Of a stretch of DNA of 64,000 nucleotides, positions 4,979 to 63,876 are shown one piece after another. Numbering within the stretch: the stretch's first letter is position 1; every line of letters starts with the position of its first letter. Origin of the DNA: Neisseria sp. (GTDB taxonomy: Bacteria; Pseudomonadota; Gammaproteobacteria; Burkholderiales; Neisseriaceae); NCBI GenBank assembly GCA_030528455.1, contig JAUMYW010000002.1:87704-151703 (forward strand), read 5' to 3'. Made by a program: the position numbers and the translations under genes. Under the pieces are notes generated by a model. That model saw only the letters and a list, made by a program, of their open reading frames with translations. It had not been told where the DNA came from and did no database searches.

Positions 4979-5590
4979 ATGCGGTTGCGCTTTCTGCCGG
5001 GCGTTCTGTGCCTGGCTGCCTCGGTACAGGCTTCCGATTACTCTTTACCAGCTTACGATATTATCGGAAAAAACAGCAGCTACAATACACGCTACGTGGA
5101 AACAGAACGCGACAGGGCTTTTGAAGAAAGCGAGCTTGCTCTGCCCGGATTTCCCGACCGGCAGACAAGCTGGCTGGAAATAGAGGTTGCAGACGGCACA
5201 AACCGCCGAATTGCCGTCTCGGAGCAAAGTATTGCTTTAGCACCCGACCGGACCGTCCGTTATCTGTTGAATATCCGTTCGGCAAAAGGCAGCGACAACA
5301 TCAGTGCCGAAGCCCTGTATTGCTCGCCCTACACCCTGTCCGCCAAACCTTCTTCTTATAAAATATATGCCTATGGGGATTCGACCGGCAAACGCTGGAT
5401 TCCGGTACGCCGTCCGGAATGGAAGAATTTGGGTACACTCCTGAATTCCGAACACTCCGTCCGCTCGGTGATTTATCAGGCTTGGTGCGTAGACGGCCTG
5501 CCTGGCGACACGGCCGGTTTGGTCCGCCGCCTGAAAGAACGTGCCGGCAATTTTCCCGTTCCCGGCAAATTAAATCGGGACAAAAAATAA
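4979..5590 (+). CDS. CNP1-like family secreted protein
   Basis: The ATG at 4979 follows CAGGAG and gives 203 residues beginning with a signal peptide (MRLRFLPGVLCLAASVQAS, cut near residue 19). An upstream in-frame start exists but would bury the signal peptide. The body, with the GxSxxxxYVxTxRxRxFEExE and LPxFP pattern, RYLLNIRSAKGSDNISAEALYC and a Cys near the end, reads like the CNP1-like family known from Neisseria and other beta-proteobacteria. Function is not established. It converges on ansA across a DUS hairpin. Confidence 0.75.
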   Translation: MRLRFLPGVLCLAASVQASDYSLPAYDIIGKNSSYNTRYVETERDRAFEESELALPGFPDRQTSWLEIEVADGTNRRIAVSEQSIALAPDRTVRYLLNIRSAKGSDNISAEALYCSPYTLSAKPSSYKIYAYGDSTGKRWIPVRRPEWKNLGTLLNSEHSVRSVIYQAWCVDGLPGDTAGLVRRLKERAGNFPVPGKLNRDKK

Positions 5591-48092: not shown

Positions 48093-48824
48093 TTATCTCT
48101 TTTCTGTTCCGACATCGGCTGCAGACGGAACTTCCTGTGCTGCACGCCGGTTCAAATCAACAGCCATCATTCCTGCACGGCGGACACAGGTCAGCACGCT
48201 GCCCGAAACAATCAGCAGCAATGCCGTCTGCAAAACAAACTGCGTACCGTAAGCCGCACTCTCCCAGGCACCGGCAATGCAGGCGGCGGTCAAAACCGCC
48301 ATGCGGTGCTGCTTGGCCATCGGCCCGGCAAACCGCTGCGGCAGCCCCAAACTGCCGCCGAACACGCGTATGTAAGCGGTTAATGCCGCCGCCAGTGCCG
48401 CCAGCCAGCCCAGCCAGCCCCAGTCAACAGCATATCCCAAGGCGATCAGGAATAGGCTGTCGGCAATACGGTCGGGAAATTCGTTGAACATTTCTCCGGT
48501 CGGCGTTTTCCGGCCGCCTTCCACCGCCACCATACCGTCAAACAGATTGCACAGCAGACGCAGCTGGATACAGACGGCACAGGCAAGCAAAGCCGCCGGA
48601 TGCGCAGACGGCAACAATGCCGCACCGATGGCGGAGAATACAACGCCCGCACAGGAAATGCGGTTGGGTGTGATAAAACTGCAGGCTGCCAACCGTCGGG
48701 CGGCGGCCTGTATCAGGCGGTTCTTTCGCGAAGCCAGAGGGCGGCGGTTGCCGGTATTGTCCAATTCTGTTTCTCCGTCAGTGAAAATCCGATTGTTTTC
48801 CAAGCCGGGGGCAGACGGCATCAT
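48093..48824 (-). CDS. CDP-alcohol phosphatidyltransferase family protein
   Basis: The ATG at 48824, 14 bases after the upstream oxidase stop, gives 243 residues; the longer open frame overlaps the oxidase gene. The family motif D-G-x2-A-x-GGR...G...D...D is read in FDGMVAVEGGRKTPTGEMFNEFPDRIAD-type spacing near residues 118-145, within a run of about five to six membrane helices. It would swap CMP of CDP-diacylglycerol for an alcohol; the alcohol is unknown. The start codons overlap a DUS-like ATGCCGTCTGC. It leads the lipid triad. Confidence 0.82.
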   Translation of the reverse strand: MMPSAPGLENNRIFTDGETELDNTGNRRPLASRKNRLIQAAARRLAACSFITPNRISCAGVVFSAIGAALLPSAHPAALLACAVCIQLRLLCNLFDGMVAVEGGRKTPTGEMFNEFPDRIADSLFLIALGYAVDWGWLGWLAALAAALTAYIRVFGGSLGLPQRFAGPMAKQHRMAVLTAACIAGAWESAAYGTQFVLQTALLLIVSGSVLTCVRRAGMMAVDLNRRAAQEVPSAADVGTEKR

Positions 48825-57536: not shown

Positions 57537-58973
57537 TTATTCTCCAATAAACGAAGCATTTTCTTTAATTACCCTCACATCGCTGCCGTCTGCATCTGCT
57601 GCACGGTAGCCGAATTCAAACTCGATAGGATGACTGCCTTTGTCGGCATATTCCGGAATCGTCGACACCTGGACAGGAACCGTTACCGTTTCGCGTGCAG
57701 GCACCAGCAGACCCTCTTCCGGCAAACCGGTCAGCACAATATCTTCAAAACCGCTGACCTTGGCCGTCAGCATCTGATCGCTTTCATTATTGTTGATGAT
57801 ACGCAGATTGTAGGCATTTTCCAACCAGCCTTTGGAGTTTTCGCGCACCATTACACCCCGGTCCTTAATAATATCGACATGCAGCGTATCCCGGGTTGCA
57901 ATACCGACCAGCAAAGCACACACAACGGCAAACAATACCGCGCCATAACCCAAAACACGAGGCCGCAGCAGGCGTTTCCTGATGTCTTGCTCAGTGTATT
58001 CGTGTTTCAAAGCACTTTCGGTCGTATAACGAATCAAACCGCGCGGATAATTCATTTTGTCCATGATTTCGTCGCAGGCATCGATGCAGGCGGCACAACC
58101 GATACACTCGTATTGCAGACCGTCGCGGATGTCGATGCCGGTCGGGCATACCTGCACACACATGGTGCAGTTGATACAGTCGCCCAAAGACCGATCTTTC
58201 GGATCAGCATTTTTCTTACGGGCACCCCTGGGTTCGCCACGTTCCTCGTCATAAGAAATAATCAGCGTGTCTTTGTCGAACATCGCACTCTGGAAACGGG
58301 CATACGGACACATATGCAGGCACACCTGCTCGCGCATGATATGTCCCATAAACCATGTCATAAAGCCGTAGAAACAAGCGGCAAACAGCGAACCGCCTCC
58401 GACATTCAAACCGTCAAACAAATTGGGCACAAATTCGCGGATAGGCGTAAACCAGCCGGCAAAAGTAATGCCCGTCCAAGCGGCAACGGCAAACACCAGC
58501 AGATATTTGACGGCCTTGATACGGATTTTGCGGAAATGCCAAGGTTCTTTATCCAGTTTCAAACGTTTGTTGCGGTCGCCCTCGACCAAATGATCAATCC
58601 ACAACATAATTTCGGTATAAACTGTTTGCGGACAGGTATAACCGCACCACAAACGGCCTGCAATAGTCGTCCACCAAAACAGACCGAAAGCCGAAATCAT
58701 CAGGATCAGAGCCAGATAAATCAAATCGCCCATACCGAGCGACAACCAGAAAATATAGAAGTGCCGTTCGGGAATATCAAACAGCACCGCCTGGCGGTCT
58801 CCCCAATTGAACCAGGGAATAATATAAAACACAAACTGTGTTGCCAAAACAGCCAAAATCCGCAAATTGGCAAAACGGCCTTTGGCTAATTTCGGGTGAA
58901 TACGTTTGGCTCCTTTATAAAGCGAAACAACCTGCTCTTGCGGCTTGGCAGTAGGTTTGTTGTTGTCCGACAT
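57537..58973 (-). CDS. ccoG: Cytochrome c oxidase accessory protein CcoG (FixG/RdxA)
   Basis: A 478-residue inner membrane iron-sulfur protein. The start MSDNNKPTAKPQEQ has AAGGA upstream. It has about five membrane helices, a Cys pair in CGYTCPQTVYTEI near 107, and two 4Fe-4S clusters in CINCTMCVQVCPTGID near 255-270 and CIGCAACIDACDEI near 280. The C-terminal 120 residues form the Ig-like domain. CcoG is now known as a cupric reductase for cbb3 oxidase assembly. It begins the ccoG-fixH unit. Confidence 0.95.
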   Translation of the reverse strand: MSDNNKPTAKPQEQVVSLYKGAKRIHPKLAKGRFANLRILAVLATQFVFYIIPWFNWGDRQAVLFDIPERHFYIFWLSLGMGDLIYLALILMISAFGLFWWTTIAGRLWCGYTCPQTVYTEIMLWIDHLVEGDRNKRLKLDKEPWHFRKIRIKAVKYLLVFAVAAWTGITFAGWFTPIREFVPNLFDGLNVGGGSLFAACFYGFMTWFMGHIMREQVCLHMCPYARFQSAMFDKDTLIISYDEERGEPRGARKKNADPKDRSLGDCINCTMCVQVCPTGIDIRDGLQYECIGCAACIDACDEIMDKMNYPRGLIRYTTESALKHEYTEQDIRKRLLRPRVLGYGAVLFAVVCALLVGIATRDTLHVDIIKDRGVMVRENSKGWLENAYNLRIINNNESDQMLTAKVSGFEDIVLTGLPEEGLLVPARETVTVPVQVSTIPEYADKGSHPIEFEFGYRAADADGSDVRVIKENASFIGE

Positions 58974-59181
58974 TATAGTATTCCTTAAAATTATCATTAT
59001 CCTAATTTAACGGATTATACACCCTTGCAGACGGCATACTGTAATCCAAGTCAAACAATCGGCAATATTTCCCTCAGGCATGAAAGGCCGCCCGAAAACA
59101 GATTCGGACGGCTTTTATACTAAACCTTTCAAAACTGGTATGATTCGGCTCTATTAAACAACCCAAGATAAAAGGTCAAAG

Positions 59182-61106
59182 ATGGGCAACCAGCAACCAG
59201 CAACCAGATTATAAATGAGAATTACAATAAAATCAATATATTAAAACTAAAATCCCTCTTTCCCGAAGTCTTTTGCGAAGACCGAATCGACTGGGAAAAA
59301 CTCAAACTTATTCTCGGCGAAGAAAACCTCGCACATCACAACGAACGCTACCAGCTCAACTGGGCAGGCAAAAGCGAAGCCTACCGCACGCTGCAAGTGC
59401 CCACATCCAATACCCTGATTCCCTGCCGAGCCGAATCGGTGGATTTCGACGGCACGAACAATCTCTTTATTGAAGCCGAAAACCTCGAAGCCCTGAAAAT
59501 CCTGCAAAAAGCCTATGCCGGCAGCGTGAAGATGATCTATATCGACCCGCCCTACAACACCGGCAGCGATTCCTTTATCTATCCCGACAAATTCAGCGAA
59601 ACCCGCGAAGAATACGCCCGCCGCGTCGGCGACAAAGACGGCGAAGGCTGCCTGAAACGCGACGGCGTATTCCAAGGAGCATGGCGCAAAAACAGCAAAG
59701 AAAGCGGCCATTATCACAGCAACTGGCTTTCCATGATGCTGCCGCGCCTGCATCTGGCGAAAACCCTGCTGCGCGACGACGGTGTGATATTTATCTCGAT
59801 TGACGACAATGAACAGGCGCAATTGAAACTGCTGTGCGATGAAGTGTTTGGGGCGGAGAATTTTGTTGCAGAGCTAGTGTGGAATAACGGCAGAACATCC
59901 TCTGCTCATTTTACTCATTGTCACGAATATATTTTTTGTTATACAAAAAATAAGGAGGGCTTGGGTTTATTCCAATATTCAGGAAAAGATGTTATTTCGG
60001 ATAGAACAATTAAAAAGCCAGGTGAAAAAAACCCTGAATCTACGATTTTCTTTCCAGCCGGCATGGATTTTGAATGTGAAGACAAAGTTTTCCCTAGCCA
60101 TTTTGGGGGATCAGAGCCAGTTGCAATTATAGATGGGGTTTTACAAGCTCATAATGGTAAGTTAGCAGAGCCTGTAAAGATTAAAGCCGCATGGGCAATG
60201 AAAGACATGATTCAGTCATGGATAAATGGGGAAGAAGTAATCGATCAAAAAGGACAGAAAATTCTTAGATTTTATTTTAAATCTAATGGTGTTTTGCAAT
60301 ATGAGAAAAGTAAAGGAACTTTTCACCCAAGAACTATTGTAGATGGTTATTCAACCAAACAAGGTAGTAATTTAATAAAAAGTTTGTTTGAAAATAACGA
60401 TTTATTTTCTTTCCCGAAGCCAGTGGGCTTGCTTCAATTTTTGATTCAGACAATAACTATACAGGACGATCTAATTCTCGACTTCTTCTCCGGCTCCGGC
60501 ACCACCGCCCACGCCGTGATGCAGCTTAACGCCGAAGACGGCGGCAACCGCCGCTATATCTGCGTGCAGCTTCCCGAAGAAACCGACGAAAAATCCGAAG
60601 CACGCAAAGCCGGTTTCGACACCATCGCCGAAATCGCCAAAGAACGTATCCGCCGTGCAGGCAGGCAAATCCGCGAACAACACCCCGAAAAAAACGTTGA
60701 TACCGGTTTTAAAGTATTCAAGCTGGCCGAAAGCCATTTCAAACAGTGGCGGCCGTCTGAAAACGCTGCAGACGGCATCGAGGCGCAACTGGCCATGTTT
60801 ATCGACCCCGTTGCCGAACATGCCGAACCGCTGAATATGGCTTACGAACTGATGCTGCGTTTGGGCTTGCAACTCACCTGCCCCGTTACGCATGAAGATG
60901 ATGTGTTTTGGATTGACGATCAAGACAGCGGCAAACACATTGCCCTGCTGCTCACCCGTGCCGATGAAGCTTTGATTGATGCGGTGATTGCCAAACAACC
61001 CGCCAAAGCCGTTGCGCTCGACCGTTTGTTTGACGGCAACGATGCACTGAAAACCAATACCGTATTGCAGATGCAGGAAGCCGATATTGTATTTATATGC
61101 GTATAA
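59182..61106 (+). CDS. mod: Type III DNA methyltransferase Mod, phase-variable and out of frame as sequenced
   Basis: A beta-class adenine methyltransferase: IDPPYNTGSDSF first, then the target-recognition region, then FFSGSGTTAHAVMQLN. AAAGG lies 6 bases before the ATG at 59182. The next bases are three GCAACCA units, and the ATG frame meets TAA at 59212. The long frame is open from 59172 to 61106 and has no ATG, GTG or TTG before a GTG at 59397, too late for a normal N-terminus. A fourth repeat would give 643 residues reading MGNQQPATSNQIINENYNK onward. A TGGTATGAT extended -10 lies at 59136-59144. Bases 59860-60470 are AT-rich. Confidence 0.88.
59186..59206 (+). repeat. Heptanucleotide repeat (GCAACCA)3 at the mod start
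   Basis: Three perfect tandem copies begin 4 bases after the A of the ATG. Since 7 leaves remainder 1 on division by 3, each gain or loss shifts the frame: three copies are OFF, four copies (or one) are ON, five are OFF. Confidence 0.9.
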
Positions 61107-61227: not shown

Positions 61228-63876
61228 ATGGAATTGAAATTTGAAACGCTGAATTACCAGCTTGATGCGGTCAATGCGGTTTTGCGCCTGTTTGAAGGGC
61301 AACCGAACCGCAAACGGGATTTTGAATTGCAAAGCGGTCCGAGCGGCCGCTTTGTGGCAAATGAGTTGGTTGTGGATTGGGAAACCATAGGCCGCAACCT
61401 GAATACGGTACAGACCGAAAAGGGGCTGCCTGAAACCGACATCGGCGAACACGGCTTGAATTTTTCGGTAGAAATGGAAACGGGTACGGGCAAAACATAT
61501 GTTTATCTGCGCACGATTTTCGAGCTGAACCGGCAATACGGCTGGACAAAATTCGTGATCGTCGTGCCGAGCGTGGCCATCCGCGAGGGGGTGTTGCAGA
61601 CTTTGCGCAGCACGCGCACGCACTTTGCCGAAATGTTTGATAAACCGGTGATGAATTACGCAGAGTACAGCAGCAGCCGTTTGTCGGCTTTGCGCTCCTT
61701 TGCCGTTAACGACAATATTGAAATTTTGGTGATCAATATCCAGTCGTTTGAAAAAGATTTGAATGTGATTAACAAAGAAAACGAAAGCGGCGAAGCGCCG
61801 ATCACACAAATCAGCCAAACCTGCCCCGTAGTTATTATCGACGAACCGCAGAATATGGAAACGGAAGGCCGTCTGAAAGCTTTGGAATCACTCAATCCGC
61901 TGTTTACATTGCGTTATTCGGCCACCCACAAAGAAGGCCGCCACAAAATATACAGCTTAAACCCCGTGCAGGCTTATAACTTGAAGCTGGTGAAGCAGAT
62001 TGAAGTGTTGTCGGTGCTGGCTGAAAACGATGTCAACGGTGCGTTTGTGGAATTGCTGGAAGTGTTGCAGCAAAGAGGCCGTCTGAAAGCGAAGTTAAGC
62101 ATTCATTATCAAGATAAGAAAGAAACCAAGAAAAAAACCGTTACCGTGCAATCGGGTGATGATTTGTTTGAAATATCGGGCGGCAACGAAGCATACCGCC
62201 ACGGTTATATGGTTGACGGTTTGAATATGGATACTCAGGAAATCGCCCTTTCAAACGGCCGCATCATCAGCCGCGACAATAACGGCGATGCCGTGCGCGA
62301 CGAAGTAATGAAAATGCAGATACGCCGCACCATAGAAGAGCATTTGCATAAAGAAAAACGCCTGAACCCGCAAGGCATTAAAGTGCTGTCGCTGTTTTTT
62401 ATCGACAAAGTGGAAAACTACCGCACGGCGGCGGGCGAAGCAGGCAAGTTTGCTTTGTGGTTTGAAGAGATTTACACCGAACTTTCGGGCGGAGAAAGCC
62501 CGGAAGGCGTACACAACGGCTATTTTTCGCAAGACAAACAAGGCCGTCTGAAAAACACCAACGGCACAACGCAGGCCGACAACGACACTTACCATCTGAT
62601 TATGCGTGACAAAGAAACGCTGCTCTCGTTCGACAGCCCTTTGCGCTTTATCTTTTCGCATTCCGCCCTGAAAGAAGGCTGGGACAACCCGAACGTGTTT
62701 CAAATCTGCACGCTTAACGAAAGCAACTCTCCGATTAAAAAACGGCAGGAAATCGGGCGCGGCCTGCGTTTGGCGGTCAACCAAAACGGCGTGCGGGTGC
62801 GCGATGAAAAAGTGAATATCCTCACCGTGATTCCCAACGAAAGCTACGAATTATTCGCCGCCACGCTGCAAAAAGAATATGAAGACGAATGCGGCATCAC
62901 ATTTTCCTGCGACAACATCAAATCCGCCGACAAACGCACAAAGCTTACCTACCGCAAAAATTTCAGCTTAGACCCGAAATTCCTCGAAATCTGGAACAAA
63001 CTGCAACACAAAACCCGCTACCGCGTGCAATACGACACGGCCTGCCTGATTCAGACGGCCTCCGAAGCCGTAAAAAAGCTGCCTGTAATCCAAAAGCCGA
63101 AAATCCGCTGGCAGAAAGCCGATATACACCAATCTGCGACCTACGGTATTGAAACCACGGAAACCGCCAGCAAAAGCCATGATATAGATGTGCAGTGGGC
63201 GATACCCGACATACTCGGCGAAATTCAAAAGAAAACCGGTTTAACGCGGCGCACAGTATTTGAAATCATCAAACAATCAAGCCGTCTGAATGATGCCGCC
63301 AACAACCCGCAGCGTTTTATCGACCTTACCGCCGAAAAAATCAACCAAGCATTGCAAAGCGTGATGGTGGAAGGAATCCGCTATCAAATTGTTGAAGACA
63401 GCCGTTATAGCCAAAGTCTGATCAGAAAACTGCAAGAAATGGAAAAAAGCGGCATGGAATTCTATGCCAATTCCTTCACATTCAAAGTGGGCAATCCTGA
63501 AAAAACCATCTATGCCGACTTTATCCCGCTGGATTCCGATACGGAAAACCGCTTCGCCCGCGATTGCGAAAACTACAACGACGAAGCCGCCGGCAAAATC
63601 GCTTTTTATTTCAAACTGCCTTCTTGGTTCAAAGTGCCGACACCGATTGGAAACTACAATCCCGATTGGGCGGTGGTTATGGAGCAGGCCGAGAAAGTCT
63701 ATTTTGTGGCGGAAACCAAAAATACCGGCAAAGGCATACAGAGCGGTGTGGACGAAAGCAAACTGCACCTTGAGGAAGCACTGAAAATCGGTTTTGCCAA
63801 AAAATATTTTGCAGAATGTACCGGTTTGAAATATCGGGTTGTTCAGAAAGTTAGCGAATTGAAAGCCGATGAATAA
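61228..63876 (+). CDS. res: Type III restriction enzyme, Res subunit
   Basis: An 882-residue helicase-nuclease. It has Walker A METGTGKTYVYL near residue 83, the DEAD-like DEPQNME near 205, a later helicase motif QEIGRGLRL near 505 and a PD-(D/E)xK nuclease site in NPDWAVV...VAETKNTGKG near 810-835. It needs Mod for DNA recognition, so it is silent in cutting while mod is OFF. The stop of mod is 121 bases upstream with a DUS between. Several canonical-dialect DUSs occur within it. It is slightly shorter than EcoP15I Res but looks intact. Confidence 0.95.
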   Translation: MELKFETLNYQLDAVNAVLRLFEGQPNRKRDFELQSGPSGRFVANELVVDWETIGRNLNTVQTEKGLPETDIGEHGLNFSVEMETGTGKTYVYLRTIFELNRQYGWTKFVIVVPSVAIREGVLQTLRSTRTHFAEMFDKPVMNYAEYSSSRLSALRSFAVNDNIEILVINIQSFEKDLNVINKENESGEAPITQISQTCPVVIIDEPQNMETEGRLKALESLNPLFTLRYSATHKEGRHKIYSLNPVQAYNLKLVKQIEVLSVLAENDVNGAFVELLEVLQQRGRLKAKLSIHYQDKKETKKKTVTVQSGDDLFEISGGNEAYRHGYMVDGLNMDTQEIALSNGRIISRDNNGDAVRDEVMKMQIRRTIEEHLHKEKRLNPQGIKVLSLFFIDKVENYRTAAGEAGKFALWFEEIYTELSGGESPEGVHNGYFSQDKQGRLKNTNGTTQADNDTYHLIMRDKETLLSFDSPLRFIFSHSALKEGWDNPNVFQICTLNESNSPIKKRQEIGRGLRLAVNQNGVRVRDEKVNILTVIPNESYELFAATLQKEYEDECGITFSCDNIKSADKRTKLTYRKNFSLDPKFLEIWNKLQHKTRYRVQYDTACLIQTASEAVKKLPVIQKPKIRWQKADIHQSATYGIETTETASKSHDIDVQWAIPDILGEIQKKTGLTRRTVFEIIKQSSRLNDAANNPQRFIDLTAEKINQALQSVMVEGIRYQIVEDSRYSQSLIRKLQEMEKSGMEFYANSFTFKVGNPEKTIYADFIPLDSDTENRFARDCENYNDEAAGKIAFYFKLPSWFKVPTPIGNYNPDWAVVMEQAEKVYFVAETKNTGKGIQSGVDESKLHLEEALKIGFAKKYFAECTGLKYRVVQKVSELKADE

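Follow-up and report, generated by a model that had tools for sequence, protein, structure and literature searches.

Type III methyltransferase (mod) genes of Neisseria and Haemophilus can be phase-variable at the level of translation, by means of repeat units that are not divisible by three. In the passages of PMC4751487 that deal with these tracts, the units are AGCC or AGTC for modA and CCCAA or GCCAA for modB, same-length variants occurring within one gene, and modD carries 2–15 pentamers; ModD alleles are recognized there by N- and C-terminal parts more than 90% identical to one another. CCGAA is the modD tract in the part of PMC5149525 that lists N. polysaccharea with modD and gives CACAG as the tract of the Pasteurella haemolytica mod. 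At odds with CCGAA, Table 3 of PMC5953494 reports CCAATG (7–31) for modD (NMB1261); a count in the same paper comprises 127 modD genes, 70 of them with translational tracts. A passage of PMC7394358, citing a survey, puts such tracts in 17.4% of type III mod genes. The locus described here would share with modA and modB this kind of switching, but its unit is a heptamer and not a tetramer or pentamer. With ModD it shares the genus Neisseria, the mod–res pair, a tract at the start codon, conserved protein ends and a variable recognition domain; it differs in its unit, which is GCAACCA and not CCGAA. It is also like the CACAG mod genes (P. haemolytica, Gallibacterium, Actinobacillus ureae and the Neisseria genomes G001 and G010) in being a type III mod with an array at its start, but these have another unit and encode a more distant protein (C-terminal part 49% identical for G001 and G010).

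Heptamers are known as phase-variation tracts at genes other than mod. The Neisseria gene pglE has a genic CAAACAC tract of 5–34 copies and is entered as known phase-variable in Table 3 of PMC5953494, and a passage of PMC7157529 also has it controlled by a heptanucleotide. It shares the unit length with our locus, but is a pilin glycosylation gene with another unit sequence and encodes no methyltransferase. For Haemophilus influenzae, the section of PMC2651432 on repeats describes heptamers, some of them in frame, and hmw tracts made of hepta-, octa- or nonanucleotides according to the strain; heptamers in HMW promoters also appear in passages of PMC4525171 and PMC11475388. The H. influenzae cases (hmw1a/hmw2a, and AACAACC in the frame of the HI1369 homologue) are comparable to ours in using heptamers for phase variation, and at hmw the unit class differs between strains at one gene, which is a precedent for a changed unit class. 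Unlike our locus, they concern adhesin and TonB-receptor-like genes, with hmw tracts mainly in promoters, and no mod. In the relevant parts of PMC4525171, PMC7157529 and PMC2651432 the heptamers sit at hmw, pglE and TonB-receptor genes, and the word 'heptanucleotide' is absent from PMC11868660. Neisseria units range up to nonamers, and those above five bases are described as little studied in a passage of PMC5953494. In the literature searched, covered largely as excerpts and with the REBASE survey (Atack et al., 2018) outside its scope, we found no heptamer-driven mod, nor a GCAACCA-driven one or a mod gene with a locally exchanged unit class.

The window analyzed here is a stretch of 64,000 nucleotides from a Neisseria sp. 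genome of 1,216,678 bases in 25 contigs (68.7% complete). On its plus strand, a purine-rich stretch, AAAAGGTCAAAG (59170–59181), which is a putative ribosome-binding site, is followed by an ATG start codon (59182–59184), a single G and 22 bases made up of 3.14 perfect copies of GCAACCA (59186–59207). The frame opened by this ATG ends after 10 codons (MGNQQPATRL) at a TAA (59212–59214). The frame encoding Mod is out of register with the ATG; it extends from the first base after the array to its own stop codon (59208–61106, 632 codons plus the stop at 61104–61106), and is also open for 12 codons upstream of 59208. As the array lies inside the reading frame, contains no stop in any frame and has a unit that is not a multiple of three, each unit gained or lost shifts the Mod frame relative to the ATG. 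An earlier reading, made from the sequence only, had described the ATG, the three units, the stop 10 codons on and the uninterrupted Mod frame, all of which are confirmed by direct reading; frame arithmetic agrees with its claim that a one-unit change restores the register of ATG and Mod. Reinitiation at a second ATG just after the stop (59215) would not rescue Mod, since this codon is in the same frame as the first and soon meets a stop. A promoter scan gave a weak plus-strand match (9 of 12) at 58963–58991, about 190 bp upstream, and one further match, located after the ATG.

The product of the Mod frame matches PF01555 (N6_N4_Mtase) in Pfam and has the motif order of the beta type, with DPPY at residue 113, a variable recognition domain at about residues 215–415 and FSGSG (FxGxG) at residue 427, from which a type III adenine methyltransferase is predicted. 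Three solved chains match it: 6k0w (named Mod), 4zcf (the EcoP15I modification subunit) and 7dsu (Mbo45V). Adjoining Mod on the same strand, an intact frame of 882 aa (61228–63876) encodes a predicted type III restriction subunit (Res) matching ResIII, DEAD and RE_endonuc, that is, helicase and nuclease domains, as well as the EcoP15I restriction subunit (4zcf_C) and, below the cut-off of that model, PRK15483 type III endonuclease. Neither Mod nor Res passes a curated cut-off in NCBIfam. The mod–res pair fits the architecture of a type III restriction-modification system, the activity of which is predicted.

Four of the 46 genus genomes, among them that of the window, have a GCAACCA stretch of 20 exact bases (nearly three units); in each of the four it occupies a single place, always at the start of mod. 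The window, with 3.14 copies, has an offset of 2 between ATG and Mod frame and is OFF. G041, with 6.57 copies, has an offset of 0 and a 634-aa ORF from the ATG, and reads ON; the offset is 1 both in G006 (9.00 copies) and in G045 (11.14 copies). Since one genome per species was sampled, these copy-number differences are differences between species; the junction of ATG and array and the upstream DNA also differ among the four loci. The sequence-only reading had proposed a phase-variable type III mod with a heptanucleotide tract caught at an OFF length, had suggested a search for the repeat at mod starts of related genomes, and had named an invariant repeat number as evidence to the contrary. 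The search places the repeat at mod in all four genomes and the repeat number is not invariant: three relatives have other copy numbers, one of them ON, which backs the core of that proposal. Outside Neisseria, in an order-level sample of 399 genomes (the window's own included, with only 10 from the genus and the other three heptamer genomes missing), GCAACCA arrays were found in two genomes (G275 and G366), neither at a mod start. The array of G366 (L133, same order), of at least 7 copies, precedes a TonB-receptor-like ORF and is unrelated to mod, and the other overlaps the 5′ end of an integrase-like ORF, both ORFs having been named by eye.

The mod start region was matched in 25 of the 46 genus genomes (window's own counted), some of which match only by remnants or by a paralogue with CCCAA or CCAAG tracts. 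Twenty relatives were extracted: 15 have mod and res, both frameshifted in G043, and 5 have remnants only. Tracts in the 15 are GCAACCA (three loci), register variants of CCGAA (nine), CACAG (one, G001) and poly-G (two, G042 and G043), and the second mod of G010 (L063) has a CACAG tract, in the ON state. In all 15 and in L063, a tandem tract is found beside an ATG or within about 30 bp after it. When the five remnant and two poly-G loci are set aside and the window is included, the ATG begins 3–5 bp before the array in 14 out of 14 Neisseria pentamer or heptamer loci. Three of 17 tract-bearing Neisseria loci (the window, the 15 relatives including the broken G043, and L063) are ON, namely G041, G001 and L063; this does not differ from the expected one third (P(3 or fewer) = 0.13), so we claim no bias to OFF among assemblies, and frequent use of the ON state is not shown either. 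The poly-G tract of G043 (L042) consists of 11 G, and its frameshifts in mod and res may reflect a decayed copy or assembly errors. The loci L047–L051 (in G037, G014, G009, G025 and G035) match over 38–61 residues within the first 62 of Mod and begin with a CCGAA-type start that is very short. Among these five loci the 400 bp upstream are 95–97% alike, and no res match was obtained in the 6.5 kb extracted per locus.

In the wider family, 43 of 80 related loci were examined, seven of the 43 being from genus genomes already counted. By the thresholds used, a tandem tract is near the start in 33 of the 43, some of these tracts lying outside the reading frame (L116, L091), and there is none in 10. 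Other units near related mod starts are CCAG in Stenoxybacter, GGATC in Lonepinella, AACC/ACCA in Moraxella and, in Cardiobacterium valvarum, CCGAA in at least 45.8 copies. In Actinobacillus seminis ATCC 15768 (L062), a related mod, OFF in the assembly, has 17.2 copies of the eight-base unit ACAGCACA immediately behind its ATG, the array beginning about 190 bp before position 5001. Heptamers also lie upstream of distant mod genes in Moraxella lacunata (L116, AATTCGC in 15.6 copies) and in a Moraxella sp. MAG (L091, 3.1 copies of the same unit in another register). As these arrays precede a stop located ahead of the Mod ATG, a reading-frame switch is ruled out for them, and they are perhaps promoter-type tracts.

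Taken as a whole, the window very probably carries a ModD-like type III mod–res pair in which translation of Mod is switched by slippage of the GCAACCA array next to the start codon. Slippage within a strain would alter the copy number of the array, and gain or loss of seven-base units would move the Mod frame relative to the ATG. Full-length Mod (ON) would then result from one copy-number class in three, the remaining classes ending early (OFF). Methylation would be expected in the ON form, possibly with effects on the expression of several other genes, as in a phasevarion. Type III Res of the EcoP1/EcoP15 type cuts only in complex with Mod, and an OFF array would for this reason turn off methylation and restriction together, which should be safe for the cell. 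In the lineage of the window, the heptamer would have replaced the CCGAA pentamer found in most other relatives in the genus.

Three copies make a short array, so switching may be slow in the window; three is also the minimum stated for units of 6–9 bp in the corresponding passage of the phasome paper (PMC5953494). It could be argued that the array shrank to three units and that slippage is now too rare, the allele being locked OFF and mod being lost in the window while the relatives still switch. The 3.14 copies fit such a decaying allele, and loss does happen in the genus, as five genomes keep only a remnant of the mod start, and mod and res of G043 contain additional frameshifts. However, Mod of the window is free of stops over its 632 codons and keeps both DPPY and FxGxG, an intact res frame follows, and pN/pS to the relatives is low (see below), which makes a locked allele an unlikely explanation.

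Selection on the beginning of the Mod frame was evaluated in the 63 codons (59208–59396) that precede the first ATG, GTG or TTG in this frame, a GTG at 59397. Against G045 there are 5 synonymous and 2 nonsynonymous changes (pN 0.013, pS 0.136), against G006 again 5 and 2 (pN 0.013, pS 0.137), and against the ON allele of G041, 9 and 2 (pN 0.013, pS 0.247). Constraint is less strict against G028, with 11 synonymous and 11 nonsynonymous changes (pN 0.072, pS 0.303). Judged from these substitutions, the part of the Mod frame that precedes its first usual start codon is under purifying selection, which gives further backing to the phase-variable reading. Such low pN relative to pS means that the region is most likely translated as Mod, and this argues against an internal start. 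Production of the protein from another start regardless of repeat number had been named by the sequence-only reading as evidence against a switch. The GTG at 59397 is indeed in frame, and either this codon or some non-ATG codon of the Mod frame might yield Mod at any copy number; but that GTG would drop the 63 conserved codons (pN/pS about 0.05–0.10 against the three heptamer relatives), no ribosome-site-like sequence is apparent by eye just before it, and the ATG abuts the tract in all 14 pentamer or heptamer loci. On the conservation of the preceding codons the GTG itself is rejected, and an internal start of any kind is very improbable.

Within the 64 kb window, the GCAACCA array is the sole perfect array with a period of 5–9 and at least three copies. 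In 200 order-1 simulations, the mean number of such arrays per window was 0.14 and the maximum 2; an array somewhere in the window is by itself roughly a one-in-seven event, which is modest. Two facts set it apart from chance: the array touches the start codon of a mod gene, and GCAACCA arrays, present in four of the 46 genus genomes, are always at the mod start. A window of this composition is expected to have 0.14 such arrays, but an accidental or coding-neutral duplication without a selected role is scarcely credible and is dismissed in view of the arrays in relatives: GCAACCA is at the mod start of three other genomes in 6.6–11.1 copies, and the 12 remaining genus relatives that have mod and res carry other units there. 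An imperfect tandem of the GCCA/CCAGCCAGC type, about 36 bp long, is located at 48384–48420.

A 21-row tree, built on 200 columns from around the catalytic motif, relates the GCAACCA mod to the CCGAA genes. In it G028, the tract of which is CCGAA x 12.8, groups with the four heptamer loci (support 99/97); this group sits among 18 rows mostly with CCGAA, without resolved branching inside it or, for the most part, outside it. In relation to the ModD identity criterion, the N- and C-terminal parts of the window's Mod are 94% and 92% identical to those of G028, and 81% and 65% identical to those of N. polysaccharea ATCC 43768 (G023), a non-meningococcal reference from a species listed with modD. 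With the other eight CCGAA loci in the genus, identity at the ends is 79–87% (N) and 57–66% (C), and in the recognition domain at best 63% (G039). The best reading of the window gene is that of a ModD-like phase switch with a variant unit. The sequence-only reading had regarded a seven-base unit at this place as different from the Neisseria tracts known to it. This holds in part: heptamers are known at pglE, and the gene groups with ModD-like genes that mostly have CCGAA, but a heptamer mod was not found in the literature searched.

G041 and G028 have their mod genes at the same site, in the order ccoG, a GntR/aminotransferase-like gene, mod and res (flanking genes at these loci were named by eye). 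Downstream, a transhydrogenase-subunit-like gene directly follows in G041, and in G028 an acetyltransferase-like ORF precedes it. On the upstream side, identity between the two is 94.9% across 336 bases, a stretch that stops about 60 bp short of the ATG; over 1.4 kb it is 87%. The last upstream sequence they share is the GCCGTCTGAA inverted repeat, which we take to be a neisserial uptake-sequence hairpin. Differences begin with the segment that has the start codon and continue through the tract and some 50 bases beyond it; past these, identity returns to 91–95%, and complete 80-column blocks on both sides are 91–98% identical. Flanks that are alike around a different start segment and tract at one site indicate that the unit was replaced locally. 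These alignments are most simply explained by local unit replacement through recombination and, as we infer from the tree, the direction was probably from pentamer to heptamer.

Among the other heptamer loci, the window has a ccoG neighbor like G041 and G028, without the gene in between, and its upstream DNA matches that of G028 in one 94-base stretch, at the ccoG end. G045 has the transhydrogenase-like gene downstream as G041 does, with different upstream genes, and G006 has different genes on both sides. In the 1.7 kb before the ATG, no match was obtained between any two of the four heptamer loci (blastn, E 1e-5, both strands). Outside these four, upstream DNA is common to three pairs of loci (G023–G039, G017–G021 and G042–G043), so the module's location is not new in every case. 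The protein itself is a mosaic. Compared to the heptamer relatives, Mod of the window is 96% identical in its N-terminal part, 20–21% in the recognition domain and 82–83% in the C-terminal part; the corresponding values against G028 are 94, 23 and 92%. Res is 96% identical to that of G028 and 76–77% to those of the heptamer relatives. The recognition domain has its nearest counterparts in G039 (63%) and G011 (60%) among the 15 rows compared; as it is not close to any row, a target motif is not transferable from any of them.

The general principle is ordinary and this kind of switch is already known; what deserves following up is that a unit has been replaced at a fixed locus. We tentatively suggest, as a possibility and somewhat short of an even chance, that start codon and tract form an exchangeable cassette at a fixed mod locus, in which recombination would swap 5- and 7-bp units, perhaps also poly-G and CACAG, with phase variability being kept. 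If so, the unit type, and with it the switching rate or the escape of the tract from methylation, would evolve apart from the enzyme and its target. The distribution of tracts suggests that what is kept in the mod family is the ability to switch, rather than any particular repeat. These loci form a natural series in which the influence of unit length on the switching rate could be studied, and they argue for covering units longer than five bases in screens of mod genes for switches.
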